Source: Oerskovia jenensis
Lineage (GTDB): Bacteria; Actinomycetota; Actinomycetes; Actinomycetales; Cellulomonadaceae
DNA length: 64,000 bases
Assembly (NCBI RefSeq): GCF_016907235.1
Contig: NZ_JAFBBO010000001.1
Location: 1,178,001-1,242,000, forward strand
Direction of reading: 5' to 3'
This document shows, one piece after another, positions 35,509 to 44,594 of the stretch. A program made the translations under genes and the position numbers. Under the pieces are notes generated by a model. That model ran no database searches, was not told where the DNA came from, and saw nothing but the letters and a program-made list of their open reading frames with translations. The number at the start of each line of letters is the position of its first letter. Position 1 is the stretch's first letter.

Positions 35509-36534
35509 GTGGGCGTCACCCGCCGGATCATCTTCCCAGCCCTTCGCATCGCGATCTGGGGCGTGATCGCCGTCACCCTCGTCGTGATCGCGTTCAAGTC
35601 CGCACCTCAGGCCGAGGGCGACACCGAGACCCCCTCGGCCGTGGTCACGTTGCCGCAGGTCGCCGTGGCCAAGGGGCCCATCACCAACACCGTGAACCTC
35701 ACGGGCCAGGTCGTCGCGGACCCGGCGAGCACGGAGAAGGTCACGCAGCTCGGCAAGGTCACGGCGGTGCACGCCAAGGTCGGCGACGTCGTCGCGGTCG
35801 GCGCCCCGCTGCTGGAGGTCACCCTCGAGACGCCGCAGGAGCCGCTCGTCACCACGAACAAGGAGACAGGCGAGGAGACGGTGACCGAGCGCAAGCCCAA
35901 GGTCACCAAGACCACGATGAAGGCCACGACGGCCGGGACGGTCGCGACCTTCACCGCGATCAAGGACCAGGAGGTCGCGGTCGGCGACACGTTCGCGACG
36001 ATCTCCCCCGGCACGCTGTCCGTGTCCGCCTCGATGCTCCCCGAGCAGCAGTTCCGCCTCCTGACCATCCCCACCGAGGCGACCGTGACGGTCACCGGCG
36101 GGCCGGCGCCCTTCACCTGCACCGGCCTGCGCATGGGGACGGCCGCCGCGGCCCCGGCGGAGAACGCGGACCCGACGGGCGCCGAGCCCGGCGCGACACC
36201 GTCCGCGTCGATCACGTGCGCCGTCCCTGCGGGCGTGACGGTCTTCGCGGGCCTCGCGGCCAAGCTCGAGGTCACCGCAGGCTCGGCCCAGGACGCCCTG
36301 CTCGTGCCCATCACCGCGGTCCAGGGCTCGGTCGAGACCGGCAACGTCTGGCTCGCCGGTGAAGAGGGCGGCGAGCCCGTCGAGACCGCCGTGAAGCTCG
36401 GCATCACCGACGGCACCCAGGTCCAGATCGTCGAGGGACTCTCCGAGGGCGACCTCGTCCTGCAGTTCGTGCCCGGCCAGGACGTCGCCCCGGTCGACGA
36501 GGGCATGACGATGTACGGGGGCTCGGTCGGATGA
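35509..36534 (+). CDS. Membrane-fusion/adaptor protein of MacB-like exporter 1
   Basis: The 341-residue protein has one N-terminal membrane anchor (about residues 12-30) and an extracytoplasmic adaptor of HlyD/RND-adaptor type. Lipoyl-like halves are visible around GPITNTVNLTGQVVADPAS and VTAVHAKVGDVVAVGAPLLEV, and a C-terminal beta domain includes VETAVKLGITDGTQVQIVEGLSEGDLV. The hairpin between lipoyl halves is very short, as in Gram-positive MacA-like adaptors. The GTG start has TGGAGA eight bases upstream. Its stop overlaps the next ATG (ATGA). Confidence 0.86.
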   Translation: MGVTRRIIFPALRIAIWGVIAVTLVVIAFKSAPQAEGDTETPSAVVTLPQVAVAKGPITNTVNLTGQVVADPASTEKVTQLGKVTAVHAKVGDVVAVGAPLLEVTLETPQEPLVTTNKETGEETVTERKPKVTKTTMKATTAGTVATFTAIKDQEVAVGDTFATISPGTLSVSASMLPEQQFRLLTIPTEATVTVTGGPAPFTCTGLRMGTAAAAPAENADPTGAEPGATPSASITCAVPAGVTVFAGLAAKLEVTAGSAQDALLVPITAVQGSVETGNVWLAGEEGGEPVETAVKLGITDGTQVQIVEGLSEGDLVLQFVPGQDVAPVDEGMTMYGGSVG

Positions 36535-37418
36535 GCCTGCTCGAGCTGCACGGCGTGACCCGGTCGGTCCGCCTCCCCGACGACCGGATCCTGGAGATCC
36601 TGCGCGGGATCGACCTCACGGTCGACGCGGGTGAGCACGTCTCGATCGTGGGTCGGTCCGGGACCGGCAAGTCCACGTTGCTCAACATCCTGGGGCTCCT
36701 CGACACGCCCACGGCGGGCGAGTTCCTGCTCGACGGCGTGCCCATCGGCCGCCTCTCGGGGCGCGTGCGCGCGCGCCGACGCGGCGCGGACTTCGGTTTC
36801 GTGTTCCAGCAGTTCAACCTGCTCCAGGCCCGCACGGCGCTGGAGAACGTCGCCGCCCCCCTGCTCTACGCCCAGGGCAAGCAGTTCTGGGCCCGCAAGC
36901 GCCTCGCGGCGGAGATGCTCGAGCGCGTGGGCCTGGGCGACCGTCTCGACACCATGCCGGAGAAGCTCTCGGGCGGCGAGCAGCAGCGCGTGGCGATCGC
37001 CCGTGCGCTCGTCCGTGGGCCTCGCGTGATCCTCGCCGACGAGCCCACGGGCGCGCTCGACGTCGACACGGGCGGCGAGGTCATGGACCTGCTCGACACG
37101 ATCGCCCAGGAGAACGGGTCCGCCCTGATCGCCATCACGCACGACCTCGCGGTCGCCTCGCGCGCCAAGCGCCACTTCCGGCTGGCCGAGGGAGTCCTCA
37201 CGCCCATCGCGATCGGCGCCCGCAGCGCAGGCTCGCTCGAGGGCCTGGGCTCCGCCATGGAGCACGTGCCCGACGGCGAGGACCACCAGGCGGAGCACGT
37301 CGCCGTCACGCTGGGGACGGTCGTGTCCACGTCCGCGACGAGCGCCGAGCCGGCCGGGGCGCCACGTCCTCGCACCGGGGTCGACGGCCTCTTCGACGAC
37401 TCGGTGGTGGCCTCGTGA
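36531..37418 (+). CDS. ABC ATPase of MacB-like exporter 1
   Basis: This 295-residue MacB/LolD-type ATPase has Walker A VGRSGTGKST, signature LSGGEQQRVAIARALV, Walker B VILADEPTGALD and switch His in IAITHDLAVASRAKR. An unusual C-terminal extension of about 70 residues (Gly/Ser/Ala-rich, from about residue 225) follows the ATPase core. Both ends overlap neighbours (ATGA upstream, GTGA downstream), so the exporter is translated as a coupled unit. Confidence 0.93.
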   Translation: MSLLELHGVTRSVRLPDDRILEILRGIDLTVDAGEHVSIVGRSGTGKSTLLNILGLLDTPTAGEFLLDGVPIGRLSGRVRARRRGADFGFVFQQFNLLQARTALENVAAPLLYAQGKQFWARKRLAAEMLERVGLGDRLDTMPEKLSGGEQQRVAIARALVRGPRVILADEPTGALDVDTGGEVMDLLDTIAQENGSALIAITHDLAVASRAKRHFRLAEGVLTPIAIGARSAGSLEGLGSAMEHVPDGEDHQAEHVAVTLGTVVSTSATSAEPAGAPRPRTGVDGLFDDSVVAS

Positions 37419-43263: not shown

Positions 43264-44594
43264 GGGCGTTCGAGGCGTTGAAGGCCCGACTGCCTCGTCG
43301 GGCGCCGCAGGACCCGACGGGCGACGCACCGCCGAGCGGCCGACGGACGTCGAAGCAGCAGGTCCATCGCGGCAGGGCGCGCGACCGGTTCAACGCTCGC
43401 GACCTCTTCGCCGAGGCCGCGCACGGGATCGGAGCCCGCCCCGGGCGCCTGGTGCTGACGATCCTCGGCACGGTCCTCGGCATCGCGTCGGTCGTGATCA
43501 CGGTCGGTCTCGCGCAGACCGCCGCGGGCCAGATCAGCCGCCAGTTCGACGCCGTGGCCGCGACCCAGGTCGTCATCACCCCGGCCAAGGCCGGCACCGG
43601 GGACGACGCGCGCCCGAAGGGCCGCATCCCGTGGGACGGCGCGGAGCGCGTCACCCAGATCAACGGGGTCGTCGCTGCGGGGCTCGTCGCTCCGGTCGAC
43701 GTCGAGGGCCGGCAGGTCACGGCCGTGCCGGTCAACGACCCGTCGGTCGCCGACAGGACGAGCCCTGCGGTCGTCGCGGGCTCCGCCGGTCTGCTCGACG
43801 CCGTGCGGGGGCAGGTCGTGGTCGGACGCTTCTTCGACGGCGGCCACGATGCCCGCAACGACCGGGTCGTGGTGCTCGGTGAGCGCGCCGCCGAGCAGCT
43901 CGGTGTCAACCGCATCGACAGCCAGCCGTCGATCTTCATCGGCGAGGACGCCTACACCGTCATCGGGATCTTCGGCGACGTGAAGAGACGCACGGACCTC
44001 CTCGACGCGGTGGTGCTCCCGGTCGGCACCGCGAGGCAGGACTTCCTCGTGGGCGCGCCCGAGGAGCTGCAGATCCACATCGAGACGGGTGCCGGTTCCC
44101 TGGTCGCCGAGCAGGGGCCCGTCGCCCTCGACCCCAACTCACCCGAGTCCTTCAAGGCCCAGGCGCCGGCGAGCGGTTCCTCGCTCCAGGAGAACGTCCA
44201 GGCGGACATCAACGCGATCTTCCTGGCCCTGGGCGGGATCGCGCTGCTCGTGGGTGGCCTCGGCATCGCGAACGTCACGCTGCTGTCGGTCATGGAACGT
44301 GTCGGGGAGATCGGTCTGCGGCGCGCCCTCGGCGCGACCAAGCGGGACATCGCCGGGCAGTTCGTGGTGGAGTCCGTGGTCATCGGGCTCCTGGGCGGCC
44401 TGGTCGGCGCGTCGCTGGGGGTGTTCACGGTCGTGATCGTGTCGGTCGCGCAGGAGTGGACGCCCATCCTCGACATCCGCATGGCGATCGGCTCGGCGCT
44501 CCTGGGGGGCGTGATCGGCCTGCTCGCGGGGACCTATCCCGCACTCAAGGCCGCGGCGATCGAGCCGATCGCCGCGCTGCGCGGGGGCATCTGA
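43260..44594 (+). CDS. MacB-type ABC permease of exporter 2
   Basis: The 444-residue permease has a basic cytoplasmic N-terminus of about 55 residues, then helix 1 (RLVLTILGTVLGIASVVITVG). A MacB periplasmic core domain (about 85-320) and three C-terminal helices with GIANVTLLSVMERVGEIGLRRALGA follow. It ends AAAIEPIAALRGGI, the standard MacB terminus. It pairs with the ATPase whose stop overlaps its ATG. Sequence and extension differences from the permease at 37415 show that these are two different exporters, not a recent tandem duplication. Confidence 0.94.
   Translation: MRAFEALKARLPRRAPQDPTGDAPPSGRRTSKQQVHRGRARDRFNARDLFAEAAHGIGARPGRLVLTILGTVLGIASVVITVGLAQTAAGQISRQFDAVAATQVVITPAKAGTGDDARPKGRIPWDGAERVTQINGVVAAGLVAPVDVEGRQVTAVPVNDPSVADRTSPAVVAGSAGLLDAVRGQVVVGRFFDGGHDARNDRVVVLGERAAEQLGVNRIDSQPSIFIGEDAYTVIGIFGDVKRRTDLLDAVVLPVGTARQDFLVGAPEELQIHIETGAGSLVAEQGPVALDPNSPESFKAQAPASGSSLQENVQADINAIFLALGGIALLVGGLGIANVTLLSVMERVGEIGLRRALGATKRDIAGQFVVESVVIGLLGGLVGASLGVFTVVIVSVAQEWTPILDIRMAIGSALLGGVIGLLAGTYPALKAAAIEPIAALRGGI

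Follow-up and report, generated by a model that had tools for sequence, protein, structure and literature searches.

Exporters of the MacB superfamily, or type VII ATP-binding cassette (ABC) transporters, are described as coupling ATP-driven dimer motion to movement outside the membrane, with adaptor proteins forming tubes on top of the engine (PMC5985334, PMC5768738). Described systems in Gram-positive bacteria include Spr0693-0694-0695 of Streptococcus pneumoniae, a MacAB-like pump of three genes with no lipoprotein in the abstract of its description (PMC5768738), and YknWXYZ of Bacillus subtilis and AS-48EFGH of Enterococcus faecalis, each a MacB pump and adaptor with one accessory protein (PMC5985334). 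Here, we describe a locus of eight + strand genes (ADP1, ATP1, PER1, LIPA, LIPB, ADP2, ATP2, and PER2) at positions 35509-44594 of a 64,000-nucleotide stretch of the Oerskovia jenensis genome (hereafter, the window), which a first-pass annotation had interpreted as a doubled exporter with paired lipoproteins. Our analysis removes exporter 1 and the twin lipoprotein from this picture and leaves a conserved lipoprotein-MacAB cassette of four genes encoding the lipoprotein LIPB, a peptidoglycan (PG)-binding MacA-like adaptor, an ATPase, and a MacB-type permease. The cassette is apparently widespread in actinobacteria, where it usually has its own helical four-cysteine lipoprotein, and apparently undescribed; a literature search with most subscription journals outside its reach recovered nothing that we recognized as the cassette, in keeping with the first-pass annotation, which could assign the locus to no described system.

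The cassette differs from the S. pneumoniae pump in the PG-binding domain of its adaptor, ADP2. Like YknWXYZ and AS-48EFGH it comprises one accessory protein; however, YknW and AS-48E (four transmembrane, TM, helices predicted) are described as membrane proteins whereas the extra part of the cassette is a secreted four-cysteine lipoprotein (PMC5985334). A further parallel is provided by LanI and LanFEG, a peptide-binding membrane lipoprotein and an ABC exporter that offer a model for ligand capture, although MacB is not mentioned there (PMC5786555). As in LanI/LanFEG, the lipoprotein of the cassette is encoded beside an ABC exporter. To our knowledge, LanFEG lacks an adaptor, and no biosynthesis cluster was seen as a conserved neighbor of the cassette in 76 loci, where lantibiotic genes were not searched for as such. 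In Escherichia coli, the lipoprotein YbjP was recently reported as a partner of the tripartite pumps MacAB-TolC and AcrABZ-TolC (PMC13082787, PMC13095208, PMC13016604). YbjP/TolC pump structures (9qgy, 9tg4, and 9v53) were among the PDB matches, and YbjP is reported to bind TolC in the outer membrane, unlike the lipoprotein of the cassette with its monoderm setting. Oerskovia-type actinobacteria are taken to be monoderm. BceAB-type transporters resemble the cassette in having a MacB-superfamily engine that acts at the membrane surface (PMC5985334, PMC7038271), and some lantibiotic resistance operons are reported to hold a lipoprotein (PMC5786555). BceB is described as having ten TM helices with a large domain between TM7 and TM8 and as usually occurring with a two-component system. 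PER2 (444 amino acids) contains a single MacB_PCD domain and a single FtsX domain and is accompanied by an adaptor. Conservation of a two-component system next to the cassette was not seen in the neighbor clusters of the 76 loci; a response-regulator-like open reading frame (ORF) occurred 4 times, on the other strand, among the 35 commonest clusters. Neighbor ORFs were called with a simple GC-position script that may miss short or odd genes, and each cluster was judged by one example sequence.

The features of the locus are as follows:

35509..36534, + strand: ADP1, MacA/HlyD-type adaptor of exporter 1 (a separate module); RND_mfp (E = 9.4e-10) and HlyD_D23 both below their cut-offs; precedes ATP1-PER1 in 20/20 other loci
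36531..37418, + strand: ATP1, ABC ATPase of exporter 1; ABC_tran E = 1.7e-32
37415..38614, + strand: PER1, MacB-type permease of exporter 1; MacB_PCD and FtsX above cut-off
38621..38665, + strand: GC-rich, terminator-like hairpin directly 3' of the PER1 stop, with no T run; folding z, covariation
38698..38728, + strand: conserved leader block GTGTCGAC...GTCCTAGGGGGGACACC 5' of LIPA, a candidate promoter/operator and ribosome-binding site; conserved in the genus
38731..39738, + strand: LIPA, extra four-cysteine lipoprotein, lineage-specific copy; intact in 2/7 same-genus genomes, long tree stem
39807..40802, + strand: LIPB, conserved four-cysteine lipoprotein of the cassette, predicted all-helical; lipobox LTAC, structure model
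40799..42448, + strand: ADP2, TM-anchored MacA-like adaptor with PG-binding domain and alpha-hairpin
42445..43263, + strand: ATP2, ABC ATPase of exporter 2; ABC_tran E = 9e-32
43260..44594, + strand: PER2, MacB-type permease of exporter 2; MacB_PCD and FtsX above cut-off, 5xu1_M match

Our analysis confirmed the eight genes and their order as given by the first-pass annotation, along with 4-base overlaps at five of the seven junctions. ATP1 overlaps both of its neighbors by 4 bases and the LIPB/ADP2 junction is a GTGA overlap, whereas PER1 and LIPA are separated by 116 bases. The most likely start of LIPB is 39807 and not the ATG overlap at 39735: position 39807 has a good ribosome-binding site and a lipobox signal peptide, and relatives without intact LIPA keep it as the start.

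Homology searches place the locus among MacAB-type systems, with a MacB_PCD/FtsX permease, an ABC ATPase, and a MacA-like adaptor in an operon. For both ATPases, the LolD and MacB models were top-scoring but under their own cut-offs. Residues 57-441 of PER2 align with the solved MacB-type permease 5xu1_M (E = 6.2e-24), and LolC sequences were also matched in PDB; the MacB (81 bits), ADOP (85 bits), and LolC/E (~25 bits) models all scored PER2 under their curated cut-offs. Assignment to LolCDE was not obtained, since PER2 scored 24.6 bits against lolCE versus a cut-off of 362.45 and ATP2 scored 214.9 against LolD versus 307.75. The predicted model of ADP2 is MacA-like.

To evaluate co-occurrence, all three queries were searched against the same 396 genomes of the order, yielding 84 positives for the lipoprotein (LIP) profile (E <= 0.001), 80 for ADP2 (E <= 1e-10), and 84 for PER1 (E <= 1e-60); the best 3 to 5 candidates per genome were scored, the E-value limits differ, and the statistics ignore kinship of the genomes. 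LIP and ADP2 occurred together in 67 genomes versus 17.0 expected (p = 5e-46), which upholds the earlier proposal that the lipoproteins are MacB-associated. PER1 occurred with LIP in 18 genomes versus 17.8 expected (p = 0.53) and with ADP2 in 17 versus 17.0 expected. Under strict cut-offs chosen after the scores were seen (LIP > 250 bits, ADP2 > 370 bits), ADP2 was present in 24/24 LIP genomes and in 25 genomes in total, with LIP cut by the contig start in the odd one (G356). The two genes share a contig in all 24 pairs, LIP adjoining ADP2 with gaps from -27 to 222 bases, so the pairing of LIPB with exporter 2 that had been suggested holds; five of these LIP genomes have PER1, versus 5.1 expected.

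Synteny identifies the same four-gene unit. A search of 99 relatives returned LIPB matches in 25 and LIPA matches in 22, and among 33 stretches compared by tblastn synteny, LIP and ADP2 were found in 22 and exporter 1 alone in 2 (L100 and L101). Both modules are at this place in the window and five further same-genus genomes and are together in G053, G022, G043, and G059, while LIP-ADP2-ATP2-PER2 is without exporter 1 in the stretches from G015, G025, G045, G060, G054, G051, G014, and G007. In a named set of the best 80 loci from 369 relatives, which is biased to close ones and counts loci rather than genomes (L174 and L178 share a contig), 76 have the complete cassette on a single strand, and L152, L161, and L191 are incomplete through contig ends. 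Among the genera that carry the cassette are Microbacterium, Arthrobacter, Cellulomonas, Klenkia, and Propionicimonas. In 12 of 15 distant loci tested, a selection of the weaker matches without L105 and L107, the gene just upstream of the adaptor encodes a lipoprotein with exactly four cysteines; in one of the 12 (L252) it is invisible to the LIP profile. The lipobox of L244 was miscalled and its last four cysteines fit, while L266 and L279 have no four-cysteine lipoprotein by our crude rule, yet the LIP profile matches there. In a search of the phylum, LIP matched 13/296 genomes (E <= 1e-6), five of which (one being the genome of the window) have the lipoprotein directly before the adaptor. 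Plasmids yielded a single weak match, from Streptomyces.

Two observations on individual cassettes are added here. The genome of the window has a second, distant cassette (L241:4099-8371; C1 at about 1866.1-1870.4 kb, minus strand), which is among the 12 above. A contig titled Vibrio cholerae strain 35D (L123) carries the actinobacterial cassette, and this record is probably mislabelled or contaminated.

In the lipoprotein itself, exactly four cysteines follow the lipobox in 68/68 aligned homologs, and no credible family match to it was found in Pfam, NCBIfam, or PDB. The structure model of LIPB is all-helical (predicted local distance difference test score of 92.9), and its C-terminal 68 residues are predicted to be helical apart from two breaks of one residue each. 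The best 50 of 62 Foldseek matches of this model did not include YbjP, to which LIPB may nevertheless be related. Evidence for an internal repeat comprising two CM motifs was weak, at 30 columns, E = 8e-5, and 61% probability. Among the 80 named loci, one LIP copy was found in 66, two in 8, three in 5, and nine in 1, and four LIPs are carried by L091. The nine matches, in Sanguibacter gelidistatuariae (L120:3468-16700), surround a single exporter 2 cassette and lie to either side of mrp.

LIPA is a lineage-specific extra copy of the LIPB-type part, and the twin lipoprotein noted in the first-pass annotation is not conserved. Of seven same-genus genomes, only that of the window (G000) and G005 have it intact (89% identical); remnants in G002 and G003 comprise approximately the first 65 bases and stretches past base 612, LIPA was not found as a gene in G001, G004, or G006, and the gap in G004 and G006 has no LIPA match, with the leader kept there. 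In the tree, LIPA is on a long stem apart from the LIPB of the genus, a placement that is unsure because long branches meet there. The ratio of nonsynonymous to synonymous substitutions between G000 and G005 is 0.40 for LIPA and 0.43 for LIPB, and this rate does not separate the two. Synonymous divergence between these genomes is uneven (window 37415-44594 versus L080: PER1 0.35, LIPB 0.25, ADP2-ATP2-PER2 0.07-0.08), and the LIPB of G005 groups with other species in the tree. Both observations perhaps reflect mosaic exchange of gene pieces.

The locus comprises two separate export modules that happen to be adjacent: module 1 (35509-38614) and module 2 (38731-44594). In 20 stretches of 15 kb, from 63 PER1-positive genomes, ADP1-ATP1-PER1 were in order in 20/20 other loci and a LIP match was present in 0/20, which lends little support to the suggested pairing of LIPA with exporter 1. 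L221, L225, and partly L222-L224 have the same Mrp/DeoR/GalT-GalK surroundings as the window; since exporter 1 loci share this neighborhood, the slot can hold either module alone or both. In G001 (L100), exporter 1 is followed directly by DeoR, the lipoprotein and exporter 2 missing exactly there, and a distant second cassette is present elsewhere (L242). G039 has exporter 1 ~0.76 Mb away from the cassette, and in G179 and G344 the two occupy different contigs.

A hairpin directly 3' of PER1 separates the modules. It has 18 pairs in the window and 21 in G003, and across five aligned genomes 92% of cells are paired and 4 pairs are changed on both sides. Folding z-scores for the first 60 bases after PER1 are -3.8 in G000, -7.2 in G005, -4.3 in G002, -7.3 in G003, -5.8 in G006, and -3.6 in G001 (where the sequence is another), such that a signal is present in 6/7 same-genus genomes. 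This signal is confined to those 60 bases; the entire PER1-LIPA gap, folded as 119 bases, scores scarcely better than shuffles (z = -1.3, 20/200 as good), and the mean hairpin z over all 23 loci is -1.65. Hairpins lacking a T run can end transcription in actinobacteria. The leader GTGTCGAC...GTCCTAGGGGGGACACC is kept in 6/6 same-genus genomes that hold the cassette, including those with LIPA broken or lost, and because it is kept even where LIPA is lost it fits a candidate promoter/operator and ribosome-binding site for the lipoprotein-exporter 2 unit. No sigma-70 match was found in the leader; a sigma-70 scan returned one promoter-like site (0.2 in shuffles) and a T-run terminator scan returned two terminator-like sites (1.9 in shuffles), all on the other strand. 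The leader (38698-38728) holds two TGTC/GACA palindrome-like elements conserved in the genus, the second of which has two other genome sites within two mismatches. A strong hairpin is also present 3' of the PER2 stop (window 44595-44654, z = -4.3).

With slightly better than even confidence, we interpret module 2 as a monoderm MacAB-like extruder with LIPB as a dedicated lipoprotein subunit and likely ligand catcher. Module 1 would be a three-gene adaptor-ATPase-permease exporter that ends at the hairpin. PER2 and ATP2 would together make up a membrane ABC engine of the MacB type (type VII), with TM-anchored ADP2 stacked upon it and gripping peptidoglycan through its PG-binding domain. LIPB, anchored on the outer side of this membrane and made rigid by two putative disulfides, would complex with these proteins as a fourth pump subunit, a role suggested because it is membrane-tethered, has four cysteines, and is translated in step with the adaptor. 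A speculative pairing, in which each half of the protein would close on itself, is C49-C152 and C203-C266 in mature numbering. LIPB would most likely act at the membrane surface, where it would catch an amphipathic ligand (an antimicrobial peptide, a lipid, or an envelope product) for delivery to the permease-adaptor entrance, and ATP-driven motions would then push the ligand out through the wall. The outward direction, and an adaptor fixed to peptidoglycan, are suggested by the MacB literature together with the anatomy of the module.

Several observations weigh against this interpretation. Ligand capture by LIPB is argued by analogy and its contact with the pump is putative, and structure comparison gave no recognizable fold for the lipoprotein model. 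Among the 396 genomes, 17 are LIP-positive without detected ADP2 and 13 are ADP2-positive without detected LIP, although one of the latter (G309) has a four-cysteine lipoprotein too divergent for the profile. LIP matches are without ADP2 in 9 of the 33 stretches (L098, L099, L102, L103, L106, and L109-L112; four on contigs < 15 kb), while the lipoprotein is divergent from the cassette in L105 and follows ATP2 in L107. In L153 (Cellulomonas cellasea), a lipoprotein lies behind exporter 1 with no exporter 2 within 10 kb. In 7 of the 13 LIP genomes from the phylum, the stretch examined holds no cassette, and in another the only nearby cassette is on the opposite strand. Lastly, the hairpin is absent or weak in G004 (z = -1.0) and in 8 of the 10 named Cellulomonas loci that have exporter 1 upstream, the exceptions being L153 and L156 (z about -3), so that it gives little sign of a transcription break between the modules in Cellulomonas.

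Some of these observations would also fit a different role for the lipoprotein, namely as cargo that PER2, ATP2, and ADP2 extract from the membrane to the wall or outside in the manner of LolCDE in Gram-negatives, with extra copies as further cargoes. We regard this as unlikely but as a serious rival, because tandem copies (nine divergent LIPs around one exporter in L120, four in L091) and copies away from any cassette fit it. Lipoprotein extraction by LolCDE is described as established (PMC5985334), and PER2 has weak LolC/LolE profile matches as well as the LolC matches in PDB. Yet those profile scores are exceeded by the MacB and ADOP scores, all under curated cut-offs, and one LIP is directly before ADP2 in 76/80 loci, which is what a subunit would show. 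Monoderm bacteria lack an outer membrane to which cargo could be delivered, and we know of no LolCDE system with a MacA-type adaptor. With still lower probability, the cassette could be a device for mechanotransmission, regulating wall enzymes or sensing envelope stress and using the lipoprotein as a regulatory lever, similar to FtsEX with EnvC. The FtsX-type permease, the PG-binding adaptor, and the helical lipoprotein with its long predicted terminal helix would suit such a device, whereas the MacA-like adaptor points to a conduit, the 35 commonest neighbor clusters of 76 loci contain no regulator or other gene that is conserved next to the cassette, and the patchy presence (84/396 genomes) argues against a core division role.

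The original proposal of one dedicated system built from both exporters and both lipoproteins now appears highly improbable. The modules share a strand and close spacing and have the same order in the window, five further same-genus genomes, and Cellulosimicrobium, and exporter 1 is near the cassette in 17/80 named loci, all of them Oerskovia, Cellulosimicrobium, or Cellulomonas (downstream of the cassette in L160). An extra lipoprotein also lies just before exporter 1 in three Cellulomonas loci (L138, L150, and L168), and that of L153 is with exporter 1 alone. However, exporter 1 shows no statistical association in the 396 genomes, each module is found alone in many genomes, module 2 alone is missing in G001, and a hairpin lies between them. 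The interpretation of the first-pass annotation is supported in part: the lipoprotein co-occurs with exporter 2, but the two exporters do not behave as one system. Within our preferred interpretation of LIPB as a pump subunit, an elaboration that we consider rather improbable is that the helical lipoprotein takes the place held by TolC (and its lipoprotein YbjP) in Gram-negatives, the long helical tail of membrane-anchored LIPB docking on the tip of the adaptor alpha-hairpin to complete a conduit through peptidoglycan and tandem copies giving different exits or specificities.

The genome of the window is a single contig of 4.45 Mb, and the nearest named matches of the locus are Oerskovia species, in a search that may omit records very close to the window. 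From their translations, we take the upstream neighbors to be an MgtE-like gene, DUF1003, a maleylpyruvate-isomerase-like gene, and Mrp, and the downstream neighbors to be DeoR and GalT-GalK. No further conserved neighbor that would name a substrate emerged from the ORF clusters of 76 loci, in which the DeoR/GalT-GalK frame was commonest (23 counted places). GalT and GalK are a single open frame of 834 amino acids in the window (45604-48108), six other same-genus genomes, and Cellulosimicrobium (G053, L116) and are separate genes in Cellulomonas and others, again as named from translations; the single frame is likely a gene fusion.

The use of MacA-type adaptors in monoderms, where an outer membrane is absent, is described as an unclear and known puzzle (PMC5985334). 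By tying a monoderm MacA-type pump to its own lipoprotein, the cassette offers a concrete candidate for a missing part, at a time when a lipoprotein partner has recently been reported for Gram-negative pumps, and it provides a genetic context of function for a lipoprotein family that has no Pfam or NCBIfam model.

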